From contig JAHDLB010000042.1 of NCBI GenBank assembly GCA_018432315.1, positions 62,001 through 126,000 of the forward strand: a stretch of DNA of 64,000 bases. Reading direction: 5' to 3'. Below the pieces are notes generated by a model that saw nothing but the letters and a program-made list of their open reading frames with translations, was not told the origin of the DNA and ran no database searches. Position 1 is the first letter of the stretch. Every line of letters starts with the position of its first letter. This document shows, piece by piece, positions 6,698 to 51,494 of the stretch. A program made the position numbers and the translations under genes. This DNA is from Anaerolineae bacterium (GTDB lineage: Bacteria; Chloroflexota; Anaerolineae; Aggregatilineales; Aggregatilineaceae).

Positions 6698-7459
6698 ATG
6701 GTGGATGGACGTTTCGAGGGCAAAACGGTAATCGTCACCGGCGGGAGCCGCGGGATCGGCCTCGCCACCGCCGGGGCATTCGCGCGCGAGCGCGCCCAGG
6801 TCGTGATCACGTCCCAGGACGAGGCGCGCGGCCAGGCTGCCCTGCGCGGGCTGCGCGAGGCGGGCGGCGCCGTCGAGTTCGTGCGCGCCGACCTGACCCG
6901 GCAGGCGGACGTCGAGCGGATGGTCGGGCGCGTGCTGGAGCAGTTCGGCCAGATCGACGTGCTGGTCAACAACGCGGGCGCGCACGAAAAAGCGCCCTTC
7001 ACCGAGGAGAGCGAGGCCCTGTGGGACCGCATGTACCGCGTGAACGTGTTGGGGACGGTGTTCCCTTCGCAGGCGGTCGTGCGCCACATGCTGGCCCGCG
7101 GGCAGGGCGCCATCGTGCACGTCGCGTCGAAGGCGGGCGTCGTCGGCGAGCCGGGACACGCGGCCTACAGCGCGGCGAAGGGCGCGGTGATCGCGCTCAC
7201 GCGGGCGATGGCGGTCGAGCTGGGGCCAGCCGGCATCCGTGTGAATGCGGTGTGCCCCGGCCCGGTCGTGACGGACATGCTGCTGGAGGCCGTCCCGTCG
7301 GCAGACGAGCGCGAGAAGCTGGGAGGGTTGGCCCCTTTGGGGCGGTTGGGCCAGCCGGTCGATATTGCGGGCGCGGTGTTGTTTCTGGCCTCGCCCGACA
7401 GCGACATGATGACCGGGCAGGCGCTGAGCATCGACGGCGGCATGTCGATCCTGCTGTGA
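6698..7459 (+). CDS. Short-chain dehydrogenase/reductase (second in the operon)
   Basis: A 253-residue SDR with TGGSRGIG (14-21), NNAG, catalytic Tyr157/Lys161 (YSAAK), NAVCPGPVVTDM and the terminal IDGGMSILL. It is similar in plan to the SDR at 3306 but clearly diverged. The two probably act on different steps or positions of the same substrate. ATG 6698 follows an AAAGGGA site 15 bases behind the permease stop, so the two are likely translated from one message. Confidence 0.87.
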   Translation: MVDGRFEGKTVIVTGGSRGIGLATAGAFARERAQVVITSQDEARGQAALRGLREAGGAVEFVRADLTRQADVERMVGRVLEQFGQIDVLVNNAGAHEKAPFTEESEALWDRMYRVNVLGTVFPSQAVVRHMLARGQGAIVHVASKAGVVGEPGHAAYSAAKGAVIALTRAMAVELGPAGIRVNAVCPGPVVTDMLLEAVPSADEREKLGGLAPLGRLGQPVDIAGAVLFLASPDSDMMTGQALSIDGGMSILL

Positions 7460-34220: not shown

Positions 34221-34974
34221 CAGGCTGTCGCACTATTTCGGTGGGCTGCTCGCCGTCGATAACCTGAACCTGACGATCGAGGAAGGCGAGCTGATCGGCT
34301 TGATCGGGCCGAACGGCGCGGGCAAGACCACGGTCTTCAACCTGGTCACCGGTGCCTACCGGGCCAGCGAAGGCGAGATTCTGTTCCGGGGTGAGGACCT
34401 CGTCGGCAAGCCGCCGCACGCGATCAACGCCAGGGGGATCAGCCGCACCTTCCAGACGATCCGCCTGTGGAACATGATGTCGGTGCTCGACAACGTGCGG
34501 ATCGCGCATCACGGCCAGATCAACTACACGCTGGCCGAGGCGTTCCTGCGGCTGCCGCGCTACCGGCGGGAGGAGCGCGAGATCGAGGAGCGCTCGATGG
34601 ACCTGCTGCGGCTGTTCAAGCTGGAGCGTTACGCGCAGGAGCCGGTCAAAAACCTGCCCTACGGCCAGCAGCGCCGCGTCGAGATCGTGCGCGCGATGGC
34701 GGCTCGCCCCCAACTGCTGCTGTTGGACGAGCCGGCAGCCGGCATGAACCCGCAGGAGATCAGCGCGCTGATGGACTTCATCCACTGGATCCGCGACGAG
34801 TTCCACCTGACGATCTGGCTGATCGAGCACCAGATGCGCCTGGTGATGAACATCTGCGAGCGGATCAAGGTTCTGGATTTCGGCGCGACCATCGCCGATG
34901 GCACGCCCGAGGAAATCCGGAATAATCCCCAGGTCATCGAGGCTTACCTGGGCGAGCAGGCGGAGGTGCACTAA
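34201..34974 (+). CDS. livG: Branched-chain amino-acid type ABC ATPase, LivG
   Basis: 257 residues. Walker A GPNGAGKTT, the LPYGQQRRVEIVRAM signature (family variant of LSGGQ), Walker B LLLDEPAAGMNP, and the C-terminal IRNNPQVIEAYLG typical of LivG. It starts within the end of livM and its stop overlaps the start of livF, so the three are tightly coupled. Confidence 0.94.
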   Translation: MTLLQINRLSHYFGGLLAVDNLNLTIEEGELIGLIGPNGAGKTTVFNLVTGAYRASEGEILFRGEDLVGKPPHAINARGISRTFQTIRLWNMMSVLDNVRIAHHGQINYTLAEAFLRLPRYRREEREIEERSMDLLRLFKLERYAQEPVKNLPYGQQRRVEIVRAMAARPQLLLLDEPAAGMNPQEISALMDFIHWIRDEFHLTIWLIEHQMRLVMNICERIKVLDFGATIADGTPEEIRNNPQVIEAYLGEQAEVH

Positions 34975-35678
34975 TGCTGTTCAGCGTTCAGGATTTACAC
35001 GTGTCCTATGGCAGCATCAGAGCGGTGCACGGCGTTTCGTTCGAGGTAGACGAGGGCGAGATCGTGACGTTGATCGGCGCGAACGGCGCGGGCAAATCCA
35101 CGATCCTCAACACGATCGCCGGCTTGCAGCGCCCCGACCAGGGCGAGATCATCTACCGGGGCGCCAACCTCGCCCGGATGGACGCGCACAACGTCGTCAA
35201 GCAGGGTGTGGCGCTGGTCCCCGAAGGACGGCGCATCTTTGGCAACCTGACGGTCTACGAAAACCTGCGCCTGGCGGGGTTCCAGGTGAGCCGCGACGAC
35301 CTGGAGGCGCGCATCAAGCTGGTGTACAGCTACTTCCCGCGCCTGGAGGAGCGCCGCGATCAGCTCGGCGATACCCTCTCCGGCGGCGAGCAGCAGATGC
35401 TGGCCGTTGGCCGGGCGCTGGTGACGGGCGGCAGGCTGATGCTGCTGGACGAGCCTTCGATGGGCCTGGCCCCGATCCTCGTCCAGCACATTTTCGAGAT
35501 TCTGGCCGAGATCAACCGGCAGGGCACGACGATCCTGCTGGTCGAGCAAAACGCGCACATGGCGCTGAAGCTGGCGAATCGCGGCTACGTGCTGGAAACG
35601 GGCAGCGTCATGCTGTCCGGTCCCAGCAAGGAACTGGCCGAAAGCCCGGAGGTCCAGCGCGCGTACCTGGGCGGCTGA
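34974..35678 (+). CDS. livF: Branched-chain amino-acid type ABC ATPase, LivF
   Basis: 234 residues, the normal LivF length. Walker A GANGAGKST, signature LSGGEQQMLAVGRAL, Walker B MLLDEPSMGLAP, and the end PEVQRAYLGG. The ATG shares one base with the livG stop codon. It completes the transporter: binding protein, LivH, LivM, LivG and LivF are all present. Confidence 0.94.
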   Translation: MLFSVQDLHVSYGSIRAVHGVSFEVDEGEIVTLIGANGAGKSTILNTIAGLQRPDQGEIIYRGANLARMDAHNVVKQGVALVPEGRRIFGNLTVYENLRLAGFQVSRDDLEARIKLVYSYFPRLEERRDQLGDTLSGGEQQMLAVGRALVTGGRLMLLDEPSMGLAPILVQHIFEILAEINRQGTTILLVEQNAHMALKLANRGYVLETGSVMLSGPSKELAESPEVQRAYLGG

Positions 35679-38234: not shown

Positions 38235-39203
38235 ATGTTGACGATTCGCCCCTTCACCTTCACCGACGACGATTACTACCTGGCGATTGCCATCGTTGCA
38301 GCGATCTTCGACGATCCGCCCGAACCGTTGGACGAATGGAAGCACGACGACGAGACGCGCAACCCGGATTTCCCGCATCACAGCGAGATCGTCGAGCGCG
38401 ACGGGACCCCGATCGCCTACGTCGAGACGTTCCAGAGCCCGTTTTTCTACCACCCGCAGAAATACGAATGCCGGATCTTCGTCCATCCCGATCACGACGC
38501 GCCGGACATCCGCCCGATGGTGCTGGCGCACGCGCTCGACCGGCTGCGCGACCAGGACCTGATCGCGATCACGTCGGGGATGCTGGACGACAAGCCGGAG
38601 GCCATGCGCTTCTTCGACGACTACGGCTTCAAACCCGTTGCGGTGGAGAAGGTGTCCAAGCTGGACGTGACTCGCTTCGACGAGGCGCGCTACGAGCCGC
38701 ACCTGGAGCGCGTGCGCGCCGCGGGGTTCGAGATCGTGACACTGCGGACGCTGCAAGGGCGCGATGCCGACTGGCAGCGCAAGCTGTACGACCTGGACGT
38801 GACCGTCAACCGGGAGATTCCCTCGACGGGCGAGAAGCATTACCCGGCGTTCGACGATTGGCTCATCCGGCGGCTGACGACGCCCAAGTTCGACCCGGAT
38901 GGCTGGTTCATCGCGCTGGATGGCGATCGCTACGCCGGTCACAGCCAGGGCAGCATCAACGCCGAGGCGGAGCCGGTGCAGTTCGTCACCGGCGTGACGG
39001 GCACGCGCCGCGAATACCGCCGCCGGGGCATCGCCACCGCGCTCAAGGTGCACGCCATCCGCTACGCGAAGGCGCACGGCGTGCAGGAGATCTTCACGAC
39101 CAACGACTCGAAAAACCCGATGTACCAGTTGAACCTGGCGCTCGGTTTCGAGCCGCAGCCCTCATGGGTGCGCGTCGAAAAGTCGCTGGTCGATTCGCAG
39201 TGA
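38235..39203 (+). CDS. Tandem-domain GNAT N-acetyltransferase
   Basis: 322 residues from ATG 38235, with a TACAAT -10-like box at 38165-38170. Two GNAT folds are arranged in tandem, about 1-150 and 160-320, as in mycothiol synthase-type enzymes. The second carries a clear acetyl-CoA motif (VTGTRREYRRRGIATALK) and the NDSKNPMYQLNLALGF end. The first domain's motif is weak and probably non-catalytic. Substrate unknown. The 286-base gap to the divergent oxidase gene contains no other feature I can support. Confidence 0.83.
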   Translation: MLTIRPFTFTDDDYYLAIAIVAAIFDDPPEPLDEWKHDDETRNPDFPHHSEIVERDGTPIAYVETFQSPFFYHPQKYECRIFVHPDHDAPDIRPMVLAHALDRLRDQDLIAITSGMLDDKPEAMRFFDDYGFKPVAVEKVSKLDVTRFDEARYEPHLERVRAAGFEIVTLRTLQGRDADWQRKLYDLDVTVNREIPSTGEKHYPAFDDWLIRRLTTPKFDPDGWFIALDGDRYAGHSQGSINAEAEPVQFVTGVTGTRREYRRRGIATALKVHAIRYAKAHGVQEIFTTNDSKNPMYQLNLALGFEPQPSWVRVEKSLVDSQ

Positions 39204-39221
39204 GCCGCGCGCGGTGGTCGG

Positions 39222-40784
39222 TCAGCCGGGCATGACCAGCGGCACGGGCAGCCGGCCCGCCGGCTCGAACCGCCCCAGGATGGCGTCGACCGCCGCCTGG
39301 AGCGACGGCGCGCTGTCGCCGCAGGTGAACAGCGTCGCGTCCATGCCGCTCAGCACACCCGCGTCATACGGGTTACGCAGGCACAGCAGGATCGGGCGGC
39401 GGCCCGCGCGGATCAGGGCCTGCGTCGCGTCGCGCTGGTCCGGGTACAGGTGGGCGTTGCGGGTCGCGACGATCAGCACGTCGACGCGGGCGGCGATCTG
39501 CCGCGCCTGCGCGAGCGCGTCCGTTGCCGCGCCGCCCGGATCGAGCGCGACGCTCTGCAGGGCGGGGAGGCTCGCGGCGAGCAAGGCCGCCAGCCCGGTA
39601 TGCCCGCCGGATTCGAGCGCTTCGGAGTCCAGGGCAGAGGCGAACTCGACCAGGCCGACCGATTGGTCGCCCGCTGCGTCGACCGGCGTCCAGCCCGCCT
39701 CACCGGCCATCACTACCATCCCGGCGCGCGCGGCGCGGGCCATGATCGCCAGGTGGTCGGGGTGGCGAATGCGGTCGAACGCGGGCGGCGCCATACCGGC
39801 GGCGAACTGTTCTTTCATCGCCGCCACCTTGCTGACGGCGCGGTCGATCGTCGCTTCCGGCAGTCTGCCGGACCGGGCGGCCTCGATCAGCGCGTCGTGG
39901 GCCGCTTCCTGGTAGGCGCGCGTGTGCGAAAACAGGATGGTGCTCGCCCCGGCCAGCGCCGCCAGCACCGCCGACTCGCCGGGGCCGTAGGCGTTGGTGA
40001 CCGCCTTCATCTCCATGCAGTCGGTCGAGATCACGCCCTCGAAACCGATGTCGCGGCGCAGCAGGCCGTCGATGATGCGCGGCGAGAGCGTGGACGGGTA
40101 GCGCGGCTCGAGCGCGGTGAACTGGACGTGCGTGATCATCATGGCGGCGATCCCGGCTTCGCTGGCCGCGCGGAAGGGGACGAGATCGGTATCCCACAGG
40201 TCATCCAGCGGGCCATCGATGACCGGCAGGCTGACGTGCGGATCGACCGGCGTGTTGGCCTTGCCGGGGAAGTGCTTGGCGGTCGCGGCGACCCCGGCCT
40301 TTTGAAAGCCCCGCACCTGGGCCACGCCCAGCCCCGCGACGCGCTCCGGATCGATGCCCAGCGAGCGCACCCCGACCGACGGATTGTGAATGTTGTGGGT
40401 GAGGTCCAGCGCGGGAGCCAGATTCCAGTTGATGCCCAGGGCGCGCATCTCGGCCCCCAGGACCGCCGACACGTCCTCGGCCAGCGCCTCGGAATCGGCG
40501 GCGCCGAGCGCCATCGCCCCCGGACTCTCGGCGAACTGATCGCGCAGGCGGGCCACCACGCCGCCTTCCTGGTCGATGGCGATCAGCAGCGGGCACGGCG
40601 CGGCGGCATGGCACGCCTCGGTCAGCGCGGCGACCTGGGCCGGGCTGGCGACGTTGCGCGCGAACAGGATCACGCCGCCGACGCGCCCCTCGGCGATCCA
40701 GTCCAGCATGTACTGCGGCGGCTCCAGCCCCTCGAACCCTACGACGAGCATCTGGCCGATTTTTTCTTCCAAAGAGAGCGTCAT
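39222..40784 (-). CDS. GH3 beta-N-acetylhexosaminidase (NagZ-like)
   Basis: A 520-residue cytoplasmic glycosidase (no signal peptide). The GH3 barrel starts LSLEEKIGQMLVVGF. The N-acetylhexosaminidase loop KHFPGKANTPVDPH carries the Asp181-His183 acid/base pair, and the nucleophile is Asp255 in ISTDCMEM. A C-terminal alpha/beta domain (about 360-520) makes it longer than Gram-negative NagZ. It should remove GlcNAc from chitobiose- or muropeptide-type substrates. It is the last gene of the ten-gene minus-strand operon with a NamZ homologue, a kinase and a peptide-type importer, which supports peptidoglycan salvage. Confidence 0.9.
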   Translation of the reverse strand: MTLSLEEKIGQMLVVGFEGLEPPQYMLDWIAEGRVGGVILFARNVASPAQVAALTEACHAAAPCPLLIAIDQEGGVVARLRDQFAESPGAMALGAADSEALAEDVSAVLGAEMRALGINWNLAPALDLTHNIHNPSVGVRSLGIDPERVAGLGVAQVRGFQKAGVAATAKHFPGKANTPVDPHVSLPVIDGPLDDLWDTDLVPFRAASEAGIAAMMITHVQFTALEPRYPSTLSPRIIDGLLRRDIGFEGVISTDCMEMKAVTNAYGPGESAVLAALAGASTILFSHTRAYQEAAHDALIEAARSGRLPEATIDRAVSKVAAMKEQFAAGMAPPAFDRIRHPDHLAIMARAARAGMVVMAGEAGWTPVDAAGDQSVGLVEFASALDSEALESGGHTGLAALLAASLPALQSVALDPGGAATDALAQARQIAARVDVLIVATRNAHLYPDQRDATQALIRAGRRPILLCLRNPYDAGVLSGMDATLFTCGDSAPSLQAAVDAILGRFEPAGRLPVPLVMPG

Positions 40785-40849
40785 CTCACCACCTCACACG
40801 TTGCCTGATCGAAAAACCTGCTGGCCGGGGCGGGCGACCGGGCCGGTGC

Positions 40850-41755
40850 TCAGCGTGCCAACCGCGCCAGCAGCGCCGCGCCGACCGCCGGTGAATGGCG
40901 CGGCACAGGCGGGGACGCCAGTCCCAGGGCCGCGCAGAGATGGCGGCTCAGCGGCGTATCGCCGGTCAGCAGGCCGCCCGCAAACGCCAGCGGCGGCGCG
41001 TCCATCTCCAGGCGGCGCATGACCGCCCGGGCGGCCAGCGCCAGCTCGTCGACCGCCCGCGCTAGGATCCCCTGGGCGACCGGGTCGCCGGCCTCCGCCC
41101 CTTCGAGCACCAGCGGGGCCAGCCGCGCGACCTCGCTCGTGCGCGGCGCGTCCGCGCGGTAGAGCCACGGGATCAGGTCGAGCGCGTCGTGCAGGCCCAG
41201 CGCGCCCAGTAGGGCAGGCGCGAGCGCGGTCGTTGGCCCGCGGCCATCCGCGGCGCGCGCCACGGCTTGCAGCGCGCGAATCCCGATCCAGTAGCCGCCC
41301 CCGGCGTCGTCGAGCAGGTAGCCCCACCCGCCGGCCAGCGCCGACTGCCCGGCGGCGTTGACGCCATACGCCAGGCTGCCGGTCCCGGCCAGGATCAACA
41401 CGCCCTCGCGTTTGCCCAGCGCGCCCACCAGCGCGATCTCGTAATCGGCGCTGGGGACGATCCGCGCCTGCGGCGCGATCGCTGCGACGACCTCGCGCAG
41501 CCAGCCGGCGGAATGGTGCGCCGCCGCGCCCGCCACGCCGATCCCGACCGCCGCGATCTGGTCCGCGGCCAGCCCGGCGGCGTCGAGCGCGGCGCGCATG
41601 GCCGCCCGGATCGTGGCGGCGGCGGTGCCCGTCCCGACGATGCTCGGGTTGGCGGTGGGGCCCTCGCTCTGCCCGCAGATCGCCAGCTCCGGCGTCACGA
41701 TCACGACCCGCACGCCGCTGCCGCCGCCGTCGATGCCCATCACGTAATCGGTCAT
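40850..41755 (-). CDS. BadF/BcrA-family kinase, probable N-acetylglucosamine/N-acetylmuramic acid kinase
   Basis: A 301-residue ASKHA-fold protein. Phosphate-1 loop GIDGGGSGVRVVI, phosphate-2 loop LAGTGSLAYG and the adenosine segment FAGGLLTGDTP. Family members include GlcNAc kinases and the MurK-type MurNAc/GlcNAc kinases. Between a NamZ and a NagZ homologue the best reading is phosphorylation of released amino sugars. No MurNAc-6-phosphate etherase (MurQ) was seen in the window, so the next step would be encoded elsewhere or differ. Confidence 0.86.
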   Translation of the reverse strand: MTDYVMGIDGGGSGVRVVIVTPELAICGQSEGPTANPSIVGTGTAAATIRAAMRAALDAAGLAADQIAAVGIGVAGAAAHHSAGWLREVVAAIAPQARIVPSADYEIALVGALGKREGVLILAGTGSLAYGVNAAGQSALAGGWGYLLDDAGGGYWIGIRALQAVARAADGRGPTTALAPALLGALGLHDALDLIPWLYRADAPRTSEVARLAPLVLEGAEAGDPVAQGILARAVDELALAARAVMRRLEMDAPPLAFAGGLLTGDTPLSRHLCAALGLASPPVPRHSPAVGAALLARLAR

Positions 41756-41811
41756 GTCGGTTCAGCCGTTGGATGGAACCGGGTCGATTGCCTGCACGGC
41801 GCGCCTCCCCG

Positions 41812-43011
41812 TCACTCGTAGCGCAAAAACGGGCGGCGCGCTTCGGCGAAGGCGCGGCAGTCGTCGGCCCACGGTTCGGCCAGCCGGGCCAGGATCGCGC
41901 CCACCGGCTCGTTCGCCGCCACGCCCGCCTCGATCTGGCGGCGCACGTCCGGCGAGCCGATCAGCCGGTCGAAGTGCTGCACACCGGTGTCGGGATGGTC
42001 CGGCAGCCACGCGAAATGCTCCGGGTACGCCGCGCGCAGGGTGACGATCACGCCCAGCCACACGTGAATCGGGCGCCAGCGCGCCGGGTCGGTGATGTGC
42101 ACCTGCACGCCGTGGCAGACCTGCCCGGCCCACTTGCTGTGAAACGGTTGAAACGTGTGGGGCCGGAAGCGCGCGCCCATCGCGGCTGCCCACGCCTCGC
42201 CGTTGAGACGGTCGGCCAGCGCCAGCGGATCGATCCACGGCGCGCCGACGATCTCGAACGGCAGCGCGGTCCCGCGCCCCTCGGACAGTTCCGTGCCTTC
42301 GACCAGGCACGCGCCGGGATAGTGCCGGAGCGTGTTCAGCGTGGGCACGTTCGGCGATGGCGCGACCCAGGGCAGGTCGGTGTCGTCCCAGGCCATGGCC
42401 CGCCGCCAGCCTGCGCACGGGACGACGGTCAGGTCGGCGGGCGTCGCGTTCCACGTCGCGTTGACCATACCGGCCATCTCGCCCAGCGTCAGGCCGTGCC
42501 GCACCGGGACGGGGAAGCGCCCGACGAACGAGGCCATCTCCGGCTCCAGCACCGGCCCCTCGATGGCCGCGCCGCCGAGCGGGTTCGGGCGATCCAGGAT
42601 CACCACGCGGACGCCATGCTCGCCCGCCGCCTCGAGGATGTGCGACACGGTCCAGGGATACGTGTAGTAGCGCACGCCGATATCCTGAATGTCGCACACC
42701 AGCACGTCAATCGCTTGCAGCATGGCGGCGGTAGGGCGGTAGGTGTCGCCGTACAGGCTGAAGACCGGCAGGCCGGTGCGCGGATCGGTCGCCGTGGCGA
42801 TCTGCTCCGCGTCGGGCGCCGCCCCCGCGAAACCGTGCTCCGGCGCGAAGAACGCCGCCAGGTTCACGTTCGGCGCGCTGGCAAAAAGCCGGTAGGCGCT
42901 GGTGAGCTGGCGGTCGATGGCGCTCGGATTCGTCATCAGCCCCACGCGCTGCCCGGACAGCAGCGCGAAATCGTCGTCGATCAGGACTTCCAAACCGGTC
43001 AGTACGGCCAC
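41812..43011 (-). CDS. namZ: DUF1343 exo-beta-N-acetylmuramidase (NamZ-type, GH171)
   Basis: 399 residues, starting with GTG 43011 behind AGGGGGAA. Family landmarks are GLMTNPSAID, FFAPEHGFAG, SLYGDTYRPT, VCDIQDIGVRYYTYPWT and DRPNPLGG. Characterised members release terminal MurNAc from peptidoglycan glycans. No export signal precedes the catalytic domain, unlike the secreted Bacillus system, so it should act in the cytoplasm on imported fragments. It is 10 bases downstream of the GntR regulator gene and shares the operon with kinase and GH3 genes. Confidence 0.9.
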   Translation of the reverse strand: MAVLTGLEVLIDDDFALLSGQRVGLMTNPSAIDRQLTSAYRLFASAPNVNLAAFFAPEHGFAGAAPDAEQIATATDPRTGLPVFSLYGDTYRPTAAMLQAIDVLVCDIQDIGVRYYTYPWTVSHILEAAGEHGVRVVILDRPNPLGGAAIEGPVLEPEMASFVGRFPVPVRHGLTLGEMAGMVNATWNATPADLTVVPCAGWRRAMAWDDTDLPWVAPSPNVPTLNTLRHYPGACLVEGTELSEGRGTALPFEIVGAPWIDPLALADRLNGEAWAAAMGARFRPHTFQPFHSKWAGQVCHGVQVHITDPARWRPIHVWLGVIVTLRAAYPEHFAWLPDHPDTGVQHFDRLIGSPDVRRQIEAGVAANEPVGAILARLAEPWADDCRAFAEARRPFLRYE

Positions 43012-43021
43012 CTGTTCCCCC

Positions 43022-43756
43022 TCAATCGATCTGGCGCAGCACGGTGTAGAACTTGTAGCGGTCGCCCCGGTAGGACGAGCGCACGTACTCGATCGGCTGC
43101 TCGTTGTCGTTGTAGGTCACGCGCGTGATGCGGAGGATCGGCGTGCACGGCCCGGCATCGAGCACCTCGCGCTCGTCTTCCCCGGCGGTGTGGGCTTCGA
43201 TGGCCTGGTGCGCGTGGGTCAGCCGCAGGTGATATTCCTTGCGGAGCACGTTGTACAGCGATTCGCGGCTGAAGTCGTGATTCTCCAGAATGCCTGGACA
43301 CAGCGCGTAGAGGATGTGCGATTTTTCCAGCGCGATCGGCATCGAATCGGCCATGCGAACTCGGTGCAAAACGACCACCTCGACGCCCGGCAAGATCGAC
43401 AGGGCTTTGGCGACTTCCTCGTTGGCCGGCTCGACGCCGCTGTAGAGCACGCTGCTGGACGCTTTCTTGCCCCGGCTGGTCATCTCCTCGGTGAAGCTGG
43501 TGAGCGATTGCAGCGCCTGATCGATCTTCGCCGGGCTGACGTAGGTACCCTTGCCCACGCTGGAGTAGATCAGCCCTTCCTGGGTGAGCTCGCTCAACGC
43601 CTTGCTGACGGTCAGCCGGTTGACGCCGAACTGCTCGGCCAACTGGCGCTCGGATGGAATGCGCTCGTTGACGGCGTAGATCCCGTTTTGAATGTTCAGC
43701 CGGATGTAGTCCTTGATCTGAACGTACAGCGGGACGGGAGAATCGTGTTTTTTCAT
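43022..43756 (-). CDS. GntR-family regulator with UTRA domain (NagR/DasR-like)
   Basis: 244 residues, the size of NagR/YvoA and DasR. The winged helix includes PLYVQIKDYIRLNI and QFGVNRLTVSKALSELTQEGLIYSSVGKGTYV. The UTRA domain ends in PIEYVRSSYRGDRYKFY. In relatives this domain binds GlcNAc-6-P or glucosamine-6-P and releases DNA. It lies inside the peptidoglycan-salvage operon, whose promoter contains a closely matching operator at 50350-50365, so autoregulation is likely. Confidence 0.9.
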   Translation of the reverse strand: MKKHDSPVPLYVQIKDYIRLNIQNGIYAVNERIPSERQLAEQFGVNRLTVSKALSELTQEGLIYSSVGKGTYVSPAKIDQALQSLTSFTEEMTSRGKKASSSVLYSGVEPANEEVAKALSILPGVEVVVLHRVRMADSMPIALEKSHILYALCPGILENHDFSRESLYNVLRKEYHLRLTHAHQAIEAHTAGEDEREVLDAGPCTPILRITRVTYNDNEQPIEYVRSSYRGDRYKFYTVLRQID

Positions 43757-43810
43757 GGTCGAAGAACCCCTCTATTCACCTGGGGAAGCAAGTCCATAGC
43801 CCGTGCAGCC

Positions 43811-43999
43811 TCAGCGCGACAGGCGCGTGATGAGCGCCACGCCCAGCATGAGCGCCCCGCCGATCGCCGCGCTGCATACGCTGAGCACGAATTCGGGGCT
43901 GTCGCGCGGTTGAACGAAGATCATCAGGAATCCACAGACGGCGATGAACATCCCGATGCGGAAGAAGCCGCGCAGCGCCTCGATCTTGGGATCGTTCAT
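43811..43999 (-). CDS. Small two-helix membrane protein in the peptidoglycan-salvage operon
   Basis: 62 residues with ribosome site GAGGCGTGA just before the ATG. Two hydrophobic segments (about 16-29, GMFIAVCGFLMIFV, and 37-58, VLSVCSAAIGGALMLGVALI) are joined by a short PRDSPE loop. The N terminus is charged. No family recognised. It sits between the last ABC ATPase gene and the regulator gene with short gaps, so it is co-transcribed and may assist the importer or envelope. Confidence 0.7.
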   Translation of the reverse strand: MNDPKIEALRGFFRIGMFIAVCGFLMIFVQPRDSPEFVLSVCSAAIGGALMLGVALITRLSR

Positions 44000-44006
44000 T
44001 CACGCC

Positions 44007-45035
44007 TCAACTCTGCTCCTCGCGGAACGCGTCCCCATATTCGCGCAGCGCGTCGCCCTGCGTCAGCGGCAGGCAGGCGACCTGGTGCCGGAAGCCCTCC
44101 GCATCTGCCAGCGGGGGCACGCGCGAATCGCACAGCCCCGGCACGAAGAACGGGCAGCGCGGATGGAAGGCGCACCCCGCCGGGATCTCCGTCAGGCTGG
44201 GGATGTCCTCGCTGCGCAGGATCATGCGCTCTTTGCGGCGCGTCAGCTCCGGGTCGGCTTCGGGAATGGCCGAGATCAGGGCGCGGGTGTACGGGTGCGC
44301 CGGGTTGACGATCACGTCCGGCGTGGGACCCAGCTCGACCATGCGCCCCAGGTACATCACGCCGATCCGCCCCTCCCAGGCGAAGTACTTCGCCAGCGCG
44401 AGGTCGTGCGTGATGAACACGATCGCGAGATTGAGCTGATCGCGCAGGCGGTGCATCATCTTGAGCAGGCTCACGCGGATGCTGACGTCGACCATGCTCA
44501 CCGCCTCGTCGGCGACGATCAGCTTCGGCTCGACCGTCAGGGCGCGCGCAATGCTCACCCGCTGGCGCTGGCCGCCGCTGAGCTGGTGCGGGAACTTGTT
44601 CACCACGTCGCCGGGGGGCGTCAGGTCCACCAGGGTCAGCAGCTCCCAGATGCGGCGGCGCAGTTCCGCCCGGCTGTGGACCATCTTGTGCCGCTTGAGC
44701 GGATAGCTCAGGATCTGGCCGATGGTGTGCGCCGAGTTCAGCGAGGCGAAGGGGTCCTGGTGGACGATTTGCAGCGCGCGCCGGTAGGCCGAGCGCTCCT
44801 TCCCTCGGAATTCGCCGACCGGGCGCCCCTGGTAGAGCACGTCCCCGGCGGACTGGCTCAGCAGGCCGACGATGATCTTGCCGGTGGTCGTTTTGCCACA
44901 GCCGCTTTCGCCCACCAGGCACAGGATTTCGTTCGGCGCGACGGTCAGGTTGATGTCCTGCAGGACCGGGATCATGACGCGGCCCTGCTTGAACGAGCGG
45001 TCGACGTGGCGCAGTTCGACGAGTGGCTGGCTCAT
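44007..45035 (-). CDS. Peptide-type ABC transporter ATPase (OppF-like)
   Basis: 342 residues from ATG 45035, which overlaps the stop of the preceding ATPase gene (ATGA). Walker [12 protein letters not shown], signature LSGGQRQRVSIARAL, Walker B LIVADEAVSMVD (the usual DEP is DEA here), and the C-terminal oligopeptide-transporter cysteine domain (CAFHPRCPF...LCDSRVPP). It is the second of two ATPases powering the importer. Longer upstream starts only run into the neighbouring gene. Confidence 0.9.
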   Translation of the reverse strand: MSQPLVELRHVDRSFKQGRVMIPVLQDINLTVAPNEILCLVGESGCGKTTTGKIIVGLLSQSAGDVLYQGRPVGEFRGKERSAYRRALQIVHQDPFASLNSAHTIGQILSYPLKRHKMVHSRAELRRRIWELLTLVDLTPPGDVVNKFPHQLSGGQRQRVSIARALTVEPKLIVADEAVSMVDVSIRVSLLKMMHRLRDQLNLAIVFITHDLALAKYFAWEGRIGVMYLGRMVELGPTPDVIVNPAHPYTRALISAIPEADPELTRRKERMILRSEDIPSLTEIPAGCAFHPRCPFFVPGLCDSRVPPLADAEGFRHQVACLPLTQGDALREYGDAFREEQS

Positions 45036-46057
45036 GATTCGGCCCCTGTGAATTGGAGCGCCCTGGCATAGACCTGGTCGGCGTGCCAGCACGCGGCGCT
45101 GTGCCCGTCGCCAACGACTTCCATCGGCGGCGTTTCCTTGGCGCAGATGTCGGTCGCAAACGGGCACCGGATATGAAACTTGCAGCCCGAAGGCGGCTCG
45201 ACGAGGTCCGGCGGGCTGCCGGGGATGCTGGTCAGCTCTTCGGCCCCGGCGCTCAGGCGTGGGATGGCCTCCAGCAGCCCCAGGGTGTACGCGTGGCGGG
45301 GCCGGTAGAACATGTCGTTCACCGGGCCCAGCTCGACGATCTCACCGGCGTACATCGTGCCCACCGTGTCGGCCATCTCGGCGGCCACCGACAGGTCGTG
45401 GCTGATGAAGATGATGCTGAAGTTCAGCTCGTCCTTGATGGACAGCAGCACGTCGATGATCGTGCGCTGCGTGAGGATATCGACGGCGGTCGTCGGCTCG
45501 TCCAGGATCACGATCTGCGGATCGAGCAGCAGCCCCAGCGCGATCAGCACGCGCTGGCGCATCCCGCCGCTGAGCTCGTGCGGGTAGGCGTTGAAGACGC
45601 GCTCCGGGTCCAGCCGTACTTTGCGGAACAGCTCCAGCGCCCGGCGGCGAACCTTGTGGTGGTTGGTTTCGCCGTGCGCGCGGGCCGTGTCGTAGAACAT
45701 GTCGCGCACGCGCAGCACCGGGTTCAGCGAGTTCAGCGCGGCCTGGAACACCATCGCGCACTCGGACCAGCGGAAGCGTCGCAGGCGGTCCTGGTTCATC
45801 TTGAGCACGTCGATCGTCGAGCCATCGCGCCGGGTGTAGACGATCGCGCCGTTGGGAACGCGCGCGTTGCCCGGCAGCAGGCGCATCAGCGCCAGGTTCA
45901 ACGTCGATTTGCCGCAGCCGCTTTCGCCCATCAGCGCCAGCGTTTCGCCCTTGTGCAGGTCGAACGACGCGTGGCTGACGGCCTTGAGCGCGCCGCGCTG
46001 GGTCAGGTAGTGGACCGAAAGGTCTCGAACACTGAGAACGACTTTGTTTTCGCTCAT
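45032..46057 (-). CDS. Peptide-type ABC transporter ATPase (OppD-like)
   Basis: 341 residues. Walker [12 protein letters not shown], signature LSGGMRQRVLIALGL, Walker B VILDEPTTAVD, and the C-terminal oligopeptide domain (CKFHIRCPFATDICAKETPP). It forms the heterodimeric motor with the OppF-like protein. The ATG is preceded by an AGGGGAC site 9 bases after the permease gene. Confidence 0.92.
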   Translation of the reverse strand: MSENKVVLSVRDLSVHYLTQRGALKAVSHASFDLHKGETLALMGESGCGKSTLNLALMRLLPGNARVPNGAIVYTRRDGSTIDVLKMNQDRLRRFRWSECAMVFQAALNSLNPVLRVRDMFYDTARAHGETNHHKVRRRALELFRKVRLDPERVFNAYPHELSGGMRQRVLIALGLLLDPQIVILDEPTTAVDILTQRTIIDVLLSIKDELNFSIIFISHDLSVAAEMADTVGTMYAGEIVELGPVNDMFYRPRHAYTLGLLEAIPRLSAGAEELTSIPGSPPDLVEPPSGCKFHIRCPFATDICAKETPPMEVVGDGHSAACWHADQVYARALQFTGAES

Positions 46058-46066
46058 ACCGTCCCC

Positions 46067-47269
46067 TTACAGACCCTGGCGCAGGCGCGGGTTGAAGATC
46101 TCTTCGAGCGAGCGCGTGAACAACACCAGGAACAACTGGAACAGCGCGATGGCGATGATCGGCGAGATCAACATGCTGGCGGCGTTGGGATTGAAGATCG
46201 CCCCTTTGGCGCGCCCGAAGTAGATCATCACGCCCCAGTCCGGTTCCTGGATGGGGACCATGCCCAGGAAGACCAGGCCCACCAGGTTGTACATGGCGCT
46301 GCGGATGGTGAAGATCATGTTGACCACGATGTAGCTGATCATGTTGGGCAGTACCTCGCGGAAGATGATGTGGAACATCCCCAGATCCAGCGCGATCGCT
46401 GCCTGGACGTAGTCGCGCTCGCGCAGGCTGAACACCTGGGCGCGCACCGCCCGCATGAGCGTCGGCCAGTAGAGCGCGGCGAACAACAGGGCCAGGTAGG
46501 TCATGTTGTCGAACGTGATGACGCTGGCTAATACCAACAACAGCGGGAACGACGGCACCGTCAGGATGAAGTTCGAGAGCGCGGAGAAAACCTGATCCAC
46601 CACGCCGCCCAACAGCCCGGCCAGCGAACCGAGGGCCACGGCGACGATCGTCGTGAGCAGCCCGGCTTCAGCCGATACCAGGATGAGATTCTTGCCGCCA
46701 TAGACGACGTGCGAGAGCACGTCACGCCCGGCCCAGTCCAGCCCCAGCGGGAACTCGCGCGTGGGGCCCTGGTACAGCGAGGACGCGCCCGGCCTGCGCC
46801 GCTCCATGTGGGATTCGCCGTCGTACTCGATGAACAGGGGGCCGAACACGATCATGAGGAAGAAAAACAGCAGGCCCAAGAAGCCGATGAAGCCCGCCTT
46901 GTTGCGGACCAGCGCCCGCGTCGCGGCCCGCGTGCTGCGTCCCAGCGCGGCCATCTGGCGGATGAAGAAATCGAACCGGGTTTCCTCGAAACTGACCTGA
47001 TCGATCGAGGCGCGCGAGGTGAACGGGTCCTGGCGATCGACGTACGCGTACGAGATCACCACGGCTGTCGTCAGCACGATCATCAGCGCGCCGCCCCAGA
47101 TGCCCGCCGCAGCCCCGCCGAAGACACACGCGGCAAAGCCGAGCAGCGCGGGGCGCACGAAGCGTTTGCGCAAGCCCAGCACCAGCGGGATCAGGCCGCA
47201 CAGGATGCCAATGATCAGCCCGGTCGGGGATGCGGCGGCGCCGAACCCAATTGCATGATCGATACCCAT
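46067..47269 (-). CDS. Peptide-type ABC permease (OppC-like) with extra N-terminal membrane segments
   Basis: 400 residues, about 100 longer than typical OppC/DppC. The usual start (ALVRNKAGFIGFLGL) appears only at about residue 122. Before it are two or three added hydrophobic helices (about 16-34, 41-60, 62-77). The permease core shows the LGLDWAGRDVLSHVVYG motif and the EAA-loop region DYVQAAIALDLGMFHIIFREVLPN. Frame and ribosome site fit the long form, and the gene follows the OppB-like gene by 2 bases. The added helices have no recognised function. Confidence 0.88.
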   Translation of the reverse strand: MGIDHAIGFGAAASPTGLIIGILCGLIPLVLGLRKRFVRPALLGFAACVFGGAAAGIWGGALMIVLTTAVVISYAYVDRQDPFTSRASIDQVSFEETRFDFFIRQMAALGRSTRAATRALVRNKAGFIGFLGLLFFFLMIVFGPLFIEYDGESHMERRRPGASSLYQGPTREFPLGLDWAGRDVLSHVVYGGKNLILVSAEAGLLTTIVAVALGSLAGLLGGVVDQVFSALSNFILTVPSFPLLLVLASVITFDNMTYLALLFAALYWPTLMRAVRAQVFSLRERDYVQAAIALDLGMFHIIFREVLPNMISYIVVNMIFTIRSAMYNLVGLVFLGMVPIQEPDWGVMIYFGRAKGAIFNPNAASMLISPIIAIALFQLFLVLFTRSLEEIFNPRLRQGL

Positions 47270-47271
47270 GA

Positions 47272-48330
47272 CTATTTCTGACCTCCAACTCGCACGCGAG
47301 GATCCAGCAGGCCGAACACCAGATCCGCCAGGATGTTGGAGACGACCACTGCCGCGGAAATGACCAGGAAGACCCCCTGCATGGTGGTGTAGTCGCGCCC
47401 GTTGATGGCGGTGTACAGCAGGCGGCCCAGGCCCGGATACTGGAAGATGAACTCGATAATGACGCTGCCGCCGACGACGAACCCGATGCTGATCGCCAGC
47501 CGGGTGATCAGGGGCAGCATGGCGTTGCGCCCGACGTAGGCCAGCACGATGCGCCGTTCGGGCAGGCCGCGCGCCTTGGCGACCGTGATGTAATCTTCGC
47601 CCAGCGTCGAGATGGTGCTGCTTTTCATCGTCAGAATCCAGCCGCCGACCGTCGTCCAGACGTAGGTCAGGACGGGCAGGCCGGCATGTTGGACCAGGCT
47701 GGTGATGTAGGGCACGTTGAAGCCGGCCTCGACGTCCTGGCTGATGCCCCCCAGCACGTCACCGACCTTGAACAGCTCAAGCTGCACCCCTGCTACCAAA
47801 AGCAGCAGCAGCGCGATCACGAAATCCGGCACGCCGTACATGATCGACGCCACGACCGTCATCGTGTTGTCGAGAAGCCCGCCGCGCCAGTAGGCCATCG
47901 ACATGCCCAGCAGCACCCCCAGCGTGAAACTGATCAGCAGCCCGGACCCGACGCTGAACAGGGTCCAGGGCAGGTAGCGCCGGATCTGGTCGGCGACCGG
48001 CGTCCCGGCGGATAGGATCGACTTGCCGAGGTCGCCGCGGGCCAGCTTGCCGATGTATTTGACGTACTGCTGGATCAGCGGCTCGTCGGGATCGAAGTCG
48101 TACAGCCCGGCGGCGCTCTTGAGCGCGTCGTCATACGATAGCTGGCGCTGGTCCATGAGTTGGTCGATCTTGATCTGGATCGGGTTGCCCGGCATCTGGC
48201 GGATCAGCACGAAGGTGAACGTGGTGACCGCCCACAGGGTCAGAATCCCCTGAACCACGACGCGAAAAGCGTAGCTCCCCACGACGCGCTTGATCGCGTC
48301 ATAGAGGCGGTGCGCTGGTGTACCTTCCAT
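47272..48330 (-). CDS. Peptide-type ABC permease (OppB-like)
   Basis: 352 residues with the family N terminus (an amphipathic stretch, then a first helix GILTLWAVTTFTFVLIRQMPGNPI), the RYLPWTLFSVGSGLLISF segment and the EAA loop EDYITVAKARGLPERRIVLAYVGRNAMLP. The C-terminal DLVFGLLDPRVRVG is typical. It partners with the OppC-like protein, whose gene starts 2 bases on. A stem-loop lies between it and the binding-protein gene upstream. Confidence 0.92.
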   Translation of the reverse strand: MEGTPAHRLYDAIKRVVGSYAFRVVVQGILTLWAVTTFTFVLIRQMPGNPIQIKIDQLMDQRQLSYDDALKSAAGLYDFDPDEPLIQQYVKYIGKLARGDLGKSILSAGTPVADQIRRYLPWTLFSVGSGLLISFTLGVLLGMSMAYWRGGLLDNTMTVVASIMYGVPDFVIALLLLLVAGVQLELFKVGDVLGGISQDVEAGFNVPYITSLVQHAGLPVLTYVWTTVGGWILTMKSSTISTLGEDYITVAKARGLPERRIVLAYVGRNAMLPLITRLAISIGFVVGGSVIIEFIFQYPGLGRLLYTAINGRDYTTMQGVFLVISAAVVVSNILADLVFGLLDPRVRVGGQK

Positions 48331-48395
48331 ACCACTGTCCTGTTGGCATAAGGAGCGGACGTTGTGACGAACGAGCAGCCTTGAATGGAACCAAA

Positions 48396-48421
48396 TTGGG
48401 CGGGAGAGTCCCCCCGCCCAA
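48396..48421 (-). terminator. Intercistronic stem-loop behind the peptide-binding-protein gene
   Basis: Perfect 9-bp stem TTGGGCGGG/CCCGCCCAA with an 8-base loop. On the minus strand it is followed by only three T residues. Probably a partial terminator or 3'-end stabiliser. Confidence 0.65.
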
Positions 48422-48441
48422 CAGGTACGGCATCGTCTGGC

Positions 48442-50211
48442 TTATTTCGGGCTGAACGCACCCGTCAGCAGCGAGTAGATGATGAAGTGATCGGTGCTGG
48501 ACGGGTTCTGGAGAATCGGGTCGTCCGGGTCCGGCAGGCCGTCGATCAGATCGGTGTTGAACGGCTCGACGCTGATCAACTCGTTGAGCGGCACGAACGG
48601 CATCAACTGGTTGATGATCAGGGCCACCTCGCTGGTGATCTCGACCTGTTTCTCGATGTCGAGCCCGGCGCTGGAGTCGTTGATCATCTGGTCGAGGTCG
48701 ATCATCTCGCCGTTCCACTCGAACTCCATCGGGAAGTTCATGCCTTTTTGGCCCTGAGTGAGCCCGACGTAGTTGAAGCGCTGGATGGGGCCGTAGAACT
48801 GGCGGGCCGGGAACGGGCTCTGGCTCGACCACGACCACACCGACAGCTCGAAGTCACCATTGCGGATGTCGTCGGCGCACTGCTGCCAGGGGATGGCGCG
48901 GGCCGTGATGTCGAAGCCGAATTCGTTCAACTGCTCGGTGGCGTTCAGCGCCATGCCGGAGAAGTCGGTGAACTCGGCGGGGAACTTGAACTCGGCGGTG
49001 ATGACATTCCCATCCGCGTCGGCCCATTTGCCGTCCGCGTTGCGCTCGAAGCCGGCGCTCTGCAGCAGTTCCGCCGCGCGGTCGGGATCGAACTCGTAGC
49101 GGTCGAGCTGGTCGATCGCTTCCTGGGTCATCCACAGCGGCACCATGGAGTCGGCGAGGCCGGCCATGTATTGGGTCGCCGTCGCGCCGAGGCCGTTGGT
49201 CAGGAACGCGTTTTCTTCACGGTCGATCACCAGGGCGGACGCCTGGCGAACTTCGGTGATGTTCCAGGGCCAGGTATCGTGCTGGAACAGCAGCGCCGGG
49301 CCGTAGCCGCGCGGGATCGCCACGGTGTTGATCCCCGCTGCGGCGAAGGCTTCCAGGGTCGAGGGCGGGTAAACGTTGGTCGCGTGCGCGATCTCGCCGC
49401 TCAGCACCAGGGGCGTGGTGGCCTCGGTCTCGCCGGCCCAGATGCGGATTTCGCCGAAGTTGACGCTGTCGGAGAAGATGCTGTTGGGGTGCCAGTGGAG
49501 CGTCATGTAGGTGTCGCCCACGTCATCCAGGGTGTAGGTGTAGGGGCCGGACGCGAGCAGCTCGTCCGGGCGAAACGCGTTGATCTCGTCGACCAGCTCG
49601 GTCCACTCCGGATCCTCGCTGGTCTTGCCGCTGTCGTAGAGTTCCTGGGCCTTGGTCGCCAGCTCGCCATAGGTATAGGCATCGCGGATGTAGTTCTTCA
49701 GGATGAACCGTTCCGCCAGCAGCGAGCCCTGGCCTTCGAGGAAGATGTAGTTGACGGTCTTCTCGTCAACTTTTTCGAGCCGGTCGATGTAGGCGAAATC
49801 CGACCAGTTCATGAGCCGGCCAATGGCGTAGGTCGCCAACACGTCGTCAGCCGTCACCGGGTCGCCGTTGCTCCAGGTGGCATCCTCGCGAATCTTGGTC
49901 CAGTAGTAGCTGTTGTCATCCGAAAAGCCCCAGGATTCGGCCAGCAGGGGGAGATATTCGCCCGTGGACCACATGTAGAACGCCATGGGCAGCTCGACAT
50001 AGCTGCGGAACCCTACGCCGAGGTTGGTCTCCAGCCCGCCGTTCGTGACGTACGCGTTGAAGCTGTGCTCGGGGGGGAGCACATACGGCCACGTGCCGAA
50101 CCAGACGCCGGAGGGAGCTTCTTGAGCTTGGGCGGGTTTGTTCAGGCCAGCGGCCCCCACCAGGCTCAGAACCAGCGCGGCAATCAGCAGACATTGCAAA
50201 TAACGCTTCAT
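48442..50211 (-). CDS. Peptide-type ABC substrate-binding protein (SBP_bac_5, OppA/DppA-like)
   Basis: 589 residues from ATG 50211, chosen because GGAG lies 6 bases upstream and the signal peptide then begins MKRYLQCLLIAALVLSLVGAAG. The mature protein carries SBP_bac_5 segments (WTKIREDATWSNGDPVTADDVLATYAIGR in part, EVRQASALVIDREE). It is the first gene of the operon that also encodes NamZ, a sugar kinase and a GH3 hexosaminidase. I therefore infer muropeptides or amino-sugar peptides as cargo rather than plain oligopeptides. Confidence 0.9.
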   Translation of the reverse strand: MKRYLQCLLIAALVLSLVGAAGLNKPAQAQEAPSGVWFGTWPYVLPPEHSFNAYVTNGGLETNLGVGFRSYVELPMAFYMWSTGEYLPLLAESWGFSDDNSYYWTKIREDATWSNGDPVTADDVLATYAIGRLMNWSDFAYIDRLEKVDEKTVNYIFLEGQGSLLAERFILKNYIRDAYTYGELATKAQELYDSGKTSEDPEWTELVDEINAFRPDELLASGPYTYTLDDVGDTYMTLHWHPNSIFSDSVNFGEIRIWAGETEATTPLVLSGEIAHATNVYPPSTLEAFAAAGINTVAIPRGYGPALLFQHDTWPWNITEVRQASALVIDREENAFLTNGLGATATQYMAGLADSMVPLWMTQEAIDQLDRYEFDPDRAAELLQSAGFERNADGKWADADGNVITAEFKFPAEFTDFSGMALNATEQLNEFGFDITARAIPWQQCADDIRNGDFELSVWSWSSQSPFPARQFYGPIQRFNYVGLTQGQKGMNFPMEFEWNGEMIDLDQMINDSSAGLDIEKQVEITSEVALIINQLMPFVPLNELISVEPFNTDLIDGLPDPDDPILQNPSSTDHFIIYSLLTGAFSPK

Positions 50212-50349
50212 TTTAATCTCCATGGAGTTATTCTAACTGGTCTTGAGGATCGGGTTATGGTTCGAATCGGGGATGGTTCAGAGGCAACTCCTTTAAATCT
50301 AATTGGCGGCGAGCTAAGTTCAGTAATTGACTCGTCTAATCTGGAATAG

Positions 50350-50365
50350 AGTGGTATATGCCACT
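50350..50365. promoter_or_regulatory. NagR/DasR-type operator of the peptidoglycan-salvage operon
   Basis: AGTGGTATATGCCACT, 13 of 16 positions equal to the DasR/NagR-type consensus AGTGGTCTAGACCACT, with intact outer arms AGTGGT and CCACT. It lies exactly at the predicted transcription start, an ideal repression position for the GntR/UTRA regulator encoded in the operon. Confidence 0.75.
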
Positions 50366-50372
50366 TGGCCTA

Positions 50373-50402
50373 AGTATAACGTGGAAGAAGGCGCAAAGTC
50401 AA
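50373..50402 (-). promoter_or_regulatory. Promoter of the peptidoglycan-salvage operon
   Basis: On the minus strand TTGACT (50402-50397), 18 bp, TATACT (50378-50373). Predicted start near 50366. Confidence 0.8.
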
Positions 50403-50437
50403 CCAGGACGCGGGGCGGTTTTGCAGGACCGGCCCGC

Positions 50438-50467
50438 TTGACATGCCGCGAGAGGTCGCACTAAGAT
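50438..50467 (+). promoter_or_regulatory. Candidate promoter of the epimerase gene
   Basis: TTGACA (50438-50443), 18 bp, TAAGAT (50462-50467). Confidence 0.55.
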
Positions 50468-50630
50468 CGGTCAAGCGGTTGCGCAAGCGCCTGGCCGGGC
50501 TCCACGCCGCCGGCACAATAGCCCGCACCCACGGCAGCGCCAAAACCATCCTCCATCCCCGCTGCTCTGCCCGCCGCCGGTGCCAACCATGACGCGCCTG
50601 CTTGTATTCGACACATTCGGAGAGGAACGC

Positions 50631-51494
50631 ATGAACAGAATCGGGATTTATTACGCCTACTGGACTCACGACTGGGACGCCGATTTTCACCCGTTCGTGG
50701 ACAAGGTGGCCGACCTCGGCTTCGACGTGCTGGAGGTGAACGCCGGCACGATTGGCAACATGACGTCCGAGCAGCGCCGGTCGCTGAAGGCGCACGCCGA
50801 CGACCGGAACATCGGGCTGTCGTACTGCGTGGGGCTGACGAAGCAGTACGACCTCGCCGCCGAGGACAAATCCGTCCGCGACAACGGCATCGCCTTCCTG
50901 CGCACGATTGCCGGGGCGATGGGCGAGATGGGCGGTGGCAATCTCGGCGGGATCATCTACAGCTCGTGGCCCGCCACGCTGCCCGCGGGCGTCACCGACA
51001 AGCGCCCCTATTGGGACCGCAGCCTCGCCAGCATGAAGGAGGCGATCAAAGCCGCCGAGGACAACAACGTCTTCTTCAACATGGAGGTCGTCAACCGTTT
51101 CGAGCAGTACCTGCTCAACACGTGCGCGGAGGCCGTCGCCTACGTGAAAGCGGTGGGCAGCCCCCACGCCAAGGTGATGCTCGACACGTTCCACATCAAC
51201 ATCGAGGAGGACTTCTTCAGCGAAGCGATCCAGACCGCCGGCGAGCACCTGGGCCACTTCCACATCGGCGAGAACAACCGGATGCCCCCCGGCTATGGGC
51301 ACATCCCCTGGACGGAGATCGGCGCCGCGCTCCGCCAGATCGGCTACAAGGGCGACGTCGTGATGGAGCCGTTCCTCATGCCCGGCGGCGAGGTGGGACG
51401 CGACATCAAGGTATTCCGCGACATGAGTGTCGGGCTGGACCTGGACGCGGAAGCGGCCAAGGCGCTGCAATTTACCCGCGGTTTCATGAAATAG
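50631..51494 (+). CDS. D-tagatose/D-psicose 3-epimerase-type sugar isomerase
   Basis: A 287-residue TIM-barrel enzyme from ATG 50631 after GGAGAGGAA. All metal and catalytic residues of the ketose 3-epimerase family are present: Glu152 (NMEVVNRFE), Asp185 (MLDTFH), His211 (FHIGE) and Glu246 (VMEPF). The spacing equals that of the classical D-tagatose 3-epimerase. It should invert C3 of a free ketose using Mn2+ or Co2+. It has its own promoter and no sugar genes next to it, so it may serve the sugar operon at 2050-12753 or others. Confidence 0.9.
   Translation: MNRIGIYYAYWTHDWDADFHPFVDKVADLGFDVLEVNAGTIGNMTSEQRRSLKAHADDRNIGLSYCVGLTKQYDLAAEDKSVRDNGIAFLRTIAGAMGEMGGGNLGGIIYSSWPATLPAGVTDKRPYWDRSLASMKEAIKAAEDNNVFFNMEVVNRFEQYLLNTCAEAVAYVKAVGSPHAKVMLDTFHINIEEDFFSEAIQTAGEHLGHFHIGENNRMPPGYGHIPWTEIGAALRQIGYKGDVVMEPFLMPGGEVGRDIKVFRDMSVGLDLDAEAAKALQFTRGFMK

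Follow-up and report, generated by a model that had tools for sequence, protein, structure and literature searches.

A putative peptidoglycan-salvage regulon built around a peptide-type ABC importer in an Anaerolineae bacterium

Gene content and layout of the operon

We describe a ten-gene operon of an Anaerolineae bacterium (assembly GCA_018432315.1; 5.69 Mb in 66 contigs) that would handle import and the first breakdown steps within a regulon for peptidoglycan salvage. The operon lies at 39222-50211 of the window, by which we mean the whole 64,000-nucleotide stretch of contig JAHDLB010000042.1 that was analysed. All ten genes are on the minus strand, and neighbouring genes overlap by up to 4 bp or are separated by at most 111 bp. 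A first-pass annotation had listed ten closely spaced minus-strand genes here, and all of them are present with the positions and families it gave.

The five leading genes encode an ATP-binding cassette (ABC) importer with the domains of the Opp/Dpp set. They are a substrate-binding protein (SBP; 48442-50211) of the SBP_bac_5 family (PF00496) with a hydrophobic, signal-like N-terminus, two BPD_transp_1 permeases of the OppB type (47272-48330) and the OppC type (46067-47269, with OppC_N and an N-terminal extension), and two ATPases with ABC_tran and oligo_HPY domains of the OppD type (45032-46057) and the OppF type (44007-45035). We placed the SBP start at the ATG at 50211, which has a GGAG 6 nt upstream, in preference to the 50223 of the open reading frame (ORF) finder, and we inferred the OppF start from its 4-bp overlap with the end of OppD. 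Directly behind OppF lies a gene for a small membrane protein of 62 residues (43811-43999), which by our own reading has two hydrophobic stretches; the window copy matched no Pfam family. In relatives this protein has about 60-75 residues, hydrophobic stretches and a common SPEFVxSVCS-like core, and it likewise follows OppF (for example in L036, L037, L120, L124 and L146), suggesting that it may be an additional transporter subunit.

The remaining four genes encode a GntR/HutC regulator with a GntR helix-turn-helix and a UTRA domain (43022-43756), a NamZ-family (DUF1343) putative exo-N-acetylmuramidase (41812-43011), a BadF-type, MurK-like sugar kinase (40850-41755) and a glycoside hydrolase family 3 (GH3) putative beta-N-acetylglucosaminidase (39222-40784; GH3 Pfam domain 252.5 bits). 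NamZ matches both PF07075 (NamZ_N; 271.6 bits, cut-off 26.9) and PF20732 (NamZ_C; 152.7, cut-off 25), and Glu58-His59-Gly60 together with other residues are invariant across 18 sequences. The nearest solved relative of the kinase is MurK (8zo3, E 5e-41), a kinase of N-acetylmuramic acid (MurNAc) and N-acetylglucosamine (GlcNAc), and the window kinase may act on both sugars; the residue preceding the catalytic Asp is Ala in our own alignment with the Tannerella MurK residues.

Export was assessed from hydropathy and domain borders. The NamZ_N domain begins at residue 23 and the GH3 domain at residue 5, and the N-termini of both proteins, unlike that of the SBP, are not strongly hydrophobic. Nor is a strongly hydrophobic N-terminus present in four proteins encoded on other contigs and described below, namely an AmiE-like hydrolase, an NlpC/P60 protein, AnmK and MurQ. 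Hydropathy and domain borders thus agree with the earlier view that NamZ and the GH3 enzyme carry no export signal, and the salvage hydrolases look cytoplasmic.

Upstream of the SBP gene the minus strand has a sigma-70-like promoter, TTGACT-N18-TATACT (50373-50402), that agrees with the consensus at 10 of 12 positions. A putative operator palindrome, AGTGGCATATACCACT (50350-50365), lies 7 nt after its -10 box. A sigma-70 consensus scan of 39000-50700 found 2 sites vs 1.2 in shuffles, and the only one on the minus strand is that upstream of SBP, which fits a single transcript for the operon.

The GH3 gene is followed by a long plus-strand ORF convergent with it, and beyond that by a gene for an FAD (flavin adenine dinucleotide) oxidoreductase. 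On the other side, a plus-strand gene divergent from the operon (50580-51494), by our own reading of the TIM-barrel sugar-phosphate isomerase type, lies 214 bases from the operator; there is also a promoter-like site at 50438-50467. Elsewhere in the window, 32196-35678 has the look of a branched-chain amino acid ABC importer, with a permease and two ATPases, again by our own reading.

A common operator and the remaining pathway genes

Within the window alone the palindrome is unremarkable, since 26 of 100 shuffles held at least one match at ≤2 mismatches. Across the whole genome, the operator pattern AGTGGNNTANNCCACT (AGTGG-N2-TA-N2-CCACT) occurs at 38 places with ≤2 mismatches, made up of 3 exact, 0 one-mismatch and 35 two-mismatch places. 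If the 35 two-mismatch places are background, about 0.06 exact sites are predicted by our own arithmetic (1 vs 594 variants). No exact site was found in this genome for either control: read backwards, the pattern gave 102 places at ≤2 mismatches, and with its central TA replaced by AT it gave 1 single-mismatch place. One of the three exact sites precedes the SBP gene of the window operon, another falls in the spacer between a NagB-II-like deaminase gene and an NlpC/P60-MurQ pair, and the third stands before an AmiE-like-AnmK operon. Peptidoglycan-salvage genes are thus found at 3 of 3 exact sites, two of which are independent because the first defined the pattern. A TTGACT-17/18-TATAxx promoter accompanies each. 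The distances from -10 box to operator are 7, 11 and -2 nt, and a repressor bound there would block the promoter. It therefore looks as though three operons are joined by one operator. The first-pass annotation had placed import and degradation in one operon; this stood for the window operon, and further pathway genes sit at the two other operator copies.

MurQ lies on another contig (G000:C35:98118-98987), where it is the sole match in the genome over the TIGR00274 cut-off (400.8 bits vs 302). It begins 4 bases after the NlpC/P60 gene, whose product has as its nearest solved relative a putative gamma-D-glutamyl-L-diamino acid endopeptidase. The longest reading frame of this NlpC/P60 gene covers the operator, and the real start is probably an ATG at L034:8870 or 8876. 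Divergent from the pair is a gene for an SIS-domain protein that is NagB-II-like and akin to a solved glucosamine 6-phosphate deaminase. At the third site, AnmK (457.5 bits vs an NCBIfam cut-off of 387) comes after a beta-lactamase-family hydrolase matching PF00144. We call this hydrolase AmiE-like because of its position and because 28-34% matches occupy the corresponding place before GH3 and NamZ in Bacillaceae loci. An epimerase-like gene converges on AnmK, and NagA is encoded at C61:260659-261783 (315.9 bits vs a cut-off of 225.65). It had been noted that no MurQ lies in the window, which is true, and concluded that the lower pathway may be unusual; that conclusion fails, since MurQ, NagA, AnmK and the NagB-II-like, AmiE-like and NlpC/P60 proteins are all encoded elsewhere in the genome. 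A missing MurQ was therefore rejected. AmpG was rejected as the importer, the genome being without a match to TIGR00901.

The regulator had been called NagR/DasR-like, and its nearest solved structures bear this out (NagR/YvoA 6e-48, DasR 1.7e-36); no NCBIfam equivalog cut-off was reached. The accessible part of the NagR report (PMC4333415) gives Arg38, Arg48 and Gly69 as DNA-contacting residues. By our own counting these align gap-free with Arg37, Arg47 and Gly68 of the window protein. The window palindrome also resembles the HutC consensus NyGTMTAKACNy, as given in the available text of PMC4494728. By analogy with these relatives, a sugar phosphate would be the effector of the GntR protein.

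Conservation in relatives

Of 154 genomes of the order, 99 have NamZ, as do 70 of 249 drawn from the class; both counts include the window genome. NamZ surroundings were obtained from 66 of the 98 other order genomes, giving 68 loci, and in 31 of these NamZ has three or more of the five importer genes beside it. Among the 31 importer loci, NamZ is over thresholds in 30, and we found the small membrane protein in 28, GH3 in 27, the AmiE-like hydrolase in 22, GntR and the kinase in 21 each, MurQ in 18 and AnmK in 17. All eleven of the five importer genes, GH3, NamZ, AmiE-like, AnmK, kinase and MurQ occur together in 14 of the 68; in one of these full loci (L171) AnmK is divergent, beyond SBP. 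This linkage agrees with the earlier proposal that importer and hydrolase genes form one unit, for which a linkage search had been advised. Outside the order but in the same class, where 28 of 58 genomes were taken, at least three importer genes were found in 3 of 28, in a different gene order, and MurQ in 17 of 28. From the linkage counts across order and class loci we conclude that the ancestral form in this order was probably one long operon, of which the window genome would carry a split version.

A wider contig scan covered the best 80 of at least 593 relatives. Importer matches of at least 40% identity lie beside NamZ in 4 of these 80 (L180, L181, L192 and L198), all of them Chloroflexota, and seven others among the 80 have ATPase matches of 25-28% only.

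Operator-like sites accompany the regulator in relatives. We scored about 450 bases before SBP in 22 operons, including that of the window. At a cut-off of 14.5 of 19, chosen after the scores had been seen, 13 of the 15 operons whose cluster includes a GntR gene had a site. Of the 7 in which no GntR was seen, none had one, and one of these 7 (L127) is cut off by its contig end. In the two exceptions among the 15 (L121 and L122) GH3 precedes SBP; in the genome of the former (G250) the only exact site lies before GH3 of the full operon with a deaminase divergent, as at the MurQ site of the window genome. G253, outside the 22, has a one-mismatch site before SBP. An exact operator also stands in front of AnmK-MurQ-AmiE genes located away from the importer in G083, and in front of a detached GntR-AnmK-MurQ group in G299. 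The latter group is headed by a second GntR/UTRA regulator of that genome (L280:2843-3649), which starts 29 bases past the operator. Most relatives carry the operator in a form with mismatches, and among their NamZ loci a perfect copy was found in one only (L070). There a perfect palindrome, AGTGGTCTAGACCACT, lies near NamZ at 7367-7382 in a distant class member; we take it to be DasR-like. Near-matches in G083, G296, G301, G249 and G055 were accompanied by no salvage gene among sixteen queries, and gave only generic ATPase or GntR matches of 30-36%.

Several arrangements among the relatives stand apart from the window operon. In other Anaerolineae (L063, L064, L067, L192 and L198) a second type of importer, a related Opp system, follows NamZ in the order NamZ-PermB-PermC-OppD-OppF-SBP. 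Its SBP, where included, is only 30-38% identical; GntR follows NamZ in L067, and L198 ends past the permeases. G374 and G375 each carry a further NamZ, a distant one (36%), that directly adjoins an SBP (33%; L172 and L174). Two genomes of one genus have an uncharacterised 440-residue protein between GH3 and NamZ (L038:10112-11434 and L044:8288-9610).

Proposed function, alternatives and known systems

Taken together, these observations suggest that the operon very probably belongs to a dedicated peptidoglycan-salvage regulon, in which intact muropeptides or disaccharides are imported by the ABC transporter and broken down in the cytoplasm. The genes and their families, the absence of visible export signals, the conserved linkage and the common operator and promoter layout were observed in the sequence. 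On the proposed route, cell-wall disaccharides or small muropeptides would be captured extracellularly by the SBP and carried in whole by the Opp-type transporter, perhaps with help from the small membrane protein. Inside, the AmiE-like hydrolase would strip off the peptide, which the NlpC/P60 and epimerase-like proteins would process, while GH3 and NamZ would take GlcNAc and MurNAc, respectively, off non-reducing ends. The MurK-like kinase and AnmK would yield GlcNAc 6-phosphate and MurNAc 6-phosphate, MurQ would remove lactate, and NagA with the NagB-II-like deaminase would feed fructose 6-phosphate. The palindrome at each of the three promoters would be occupied by the GntR repressor until accumulating sugar phosphate releases it. 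The transported substrate, the enzyme activities, the binding regulator with its effector and the role of the small protein are thus the conditional parts of the proposal.

A number of findings pull the other way. Several proteins miss the cut-offs of equivalog models. The GH3 enzyme falls just under that of PRK05337 (NagZ-type; 206.1 vs 207) and is for this reason classed only as a GH3 N-acetylglucosaminidase from its Pfam domain. The kinase scores 136.8 vs 370 for the NCBIfam GlcNAc kinase, the deaminase 219.4 vs 430 for NF046059 with the SIS domain present, and the epimerase-like protein 209.9 vs an NCBI cut-off of 400; the best NCBIfam model for the AmiE-like hydrolase is only PBP4B, at 114.5 vs 385. 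No operator was found at NagA. At ≤2 mismatches the backward control outnumbers the operator in the window genome, 102 vs 38, so that only the exact counts stand out, and at ≤1 mismatch it does so in 12 of 12 relatives' genomes searched. In 9 of those 12 there is no exact site, and one of the two exact sites of G083 falls within an unrelated ORF. Besides the late choice of the score cut-off, some of the 13 operons with a site are near copies, with L177, L178 and L179 (one genus) having one site sequence and L146 and L149 (one genus) likewise. In G249, which has the most similar importer, the cluster is without GntR, AmiE, AnmK and MurQ, and the operator was not found. Because the genome encodes six UTRA regulators, we can only infer that the GntR protein of the operon is the binder at the three sites.

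The nature of the SBP bears on what else the importer could carry. Its predicted structure (mean pLDDT, the predicted local distance difference test, 84.2; 19 aligned sequences) has only chitooligosaccharide-binding proteins and the mannoside-binding TM1223 at fold ranks 1-14, and its nearest solved relatives include mannobiose, cellobiose and chitooligosaccharide binders. A profile search with this alignment gave, judged by title, saccharide binders in 12 of its top 14 rows, the other two being 4jsd and 8i5j. Identity to the sugar-binding structures is only 17-18%, with TM-scores (template modelling scores) of 0.62-0.77, and NikA stands at fold rank 15 with it and peptide binders following closely. 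The SBP therefore leans to sugars without its specificity being fixed. Ranks 1-6 are Vibrio chitin binders, which would favour an importer that, like the Vibrio chitooligosaccharide system, takes up chitooligosaccharides or other GlcNAc saccharides, NamZ being a passenger, and GH3, a GlcNAc-type kinase and a NagR-like regulator would suit chitin too. However, NamZ, the AmiE-like hydrolase, AnmK and MurQ fit muramic acid and have their operon or their operator in common with the importer, which makes this alternative unlikely. An importer for stem peptides only, like MppA/Opp, with sugars entering by another route, is less probable still: the importer belongs to the oligopeptide family and NlpC/P60 and epimerase-like genes are linked, yet the SBP is nearest to oligosaccharide binders, a search for AmpG, the one other sugar importer sought, found none, and exo-glycosidases in the cytoplasm require that saccharides get there.

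It might be argued that importer and recycling genes adjoin each other by coincidence or have only a loose connection, since NamZ is without an adjoining importer in 37 of the 68 order loci, a count that also weighs on the salvage interpretation; some of the 37 are truncated by the end of a contig, and in others the NamZ is more distant. Against this stand a gene order kept across several families and a common operator at three separate loci. We rejected a chance neighbourhood on the conserved linkage across relatives and consider it very improbable.

The chemistry proposed here is standard, and MurQ, AnmK, NagA and NagZ/NamZ/AmiE belong to known recycling. What appears to be new is the packaging, as a variant of peptidoglycan salvage rather than a new kind of system. 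In Staphylococcus aureus, wall disaccharide enters intact through MurP of the phosphotransferase system (PTS) with phosphorylation and is cut inside by the 6-phospho-muramidase MupG. Intact uptake and cleavage inside would be common to the window system, which differs in having ABC import, NamZ and a kinase and no PTS/6-phospho-muramidase route. The ybbC gene of Bacillus subtilis is presumably namZ, so that the enzyme set of MurQ, AmiE, NagZ and NamZ has its counterparts here in MurQ, the AmiE-like hydrolase, GH3 and NamZ, and several Bacillaceae loci have the order AmiE-GH3-NamZ. As far as the available text of PMC5061867 goes, the B. subtilis cluster is murQ-murR-murP-amiE-nagZ-ybbC, with AmiE and NagZ acting extracellularly and the PTS importer MurP. 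By domain borders and hydropathy, the window system does not have this Bacillus-type layout of exported NamZ, NagZ and AmiE; unlike the B. subtilis cluster, it is without visible export signals and has an ABC importer, a MurK-like kinase, AnmK and a NagR-like repressor.

The accessible portion of PMC9790009 describes Agrobacterium YejBEF-YepA as a peptide-type ABC muropeptide importer used for recycling where AmpG is missing, with broad specificity, one ATPase gene and a wall-specific SBP encoded apart. The window system would likewise link a peptide-type ABC transporter to peptidoglycan recycling with no AmpG, whereas its operon holds SBP, two ATPase genes and catabolic enzymes together. The Vibrio chitooligosaccharide-binding protein and importer (PMC8449061, in the part available) include an SBP from the same family with an amino-sugar disaccharide as its ligand; Vibrio structures 5yqw and 6lzq are the nearest folds to the window SBP, but the substrate there is chitin and peptidoglycan is proposed here, and the SBP identity is 17-18%. 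NagR of B. subtilis and DasR of Streptomyces (PMC4918961, from its accessible part) share the GntR/HutC family and a similar operator layout with the window regulator; unlike them, it would govern an entire set of wall-salvage genes, MurQ and AnmK among them, instead of GlcNAc uptake genes. The first-pass annotation knew of no described system of this exact composition, and in the literature searched, which covers NamZ in part, we likewise found no description of the packaging, the importer or the small membrane protein.

Peptidoglycan recycling is known mainly through AmpG, the PTS (MurP) and an alphaproteobacterial ABC route. For Chloroflexota, the system proposed here offers a concrete ABC route open to testing, which has a full set of enzymes and a regulon of its own; a short operator led to the remaining pathway genes on other contigs. 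It also offers a candidate wall-fragment binding protein and a conserved small membrane protein as a possible transporter subunit. We put forward more tentatively, at somewhat less than even confidence, the full combination of an ABC importer for intact MurNAc disaccharides or muropeptides with a new small membrane subunit, a regulon under one repressor and dismantling wholly in the cytoplasm. If this is true, Anaerolineae could subsist on wall fragments from other bacteria, besides recycling their own.

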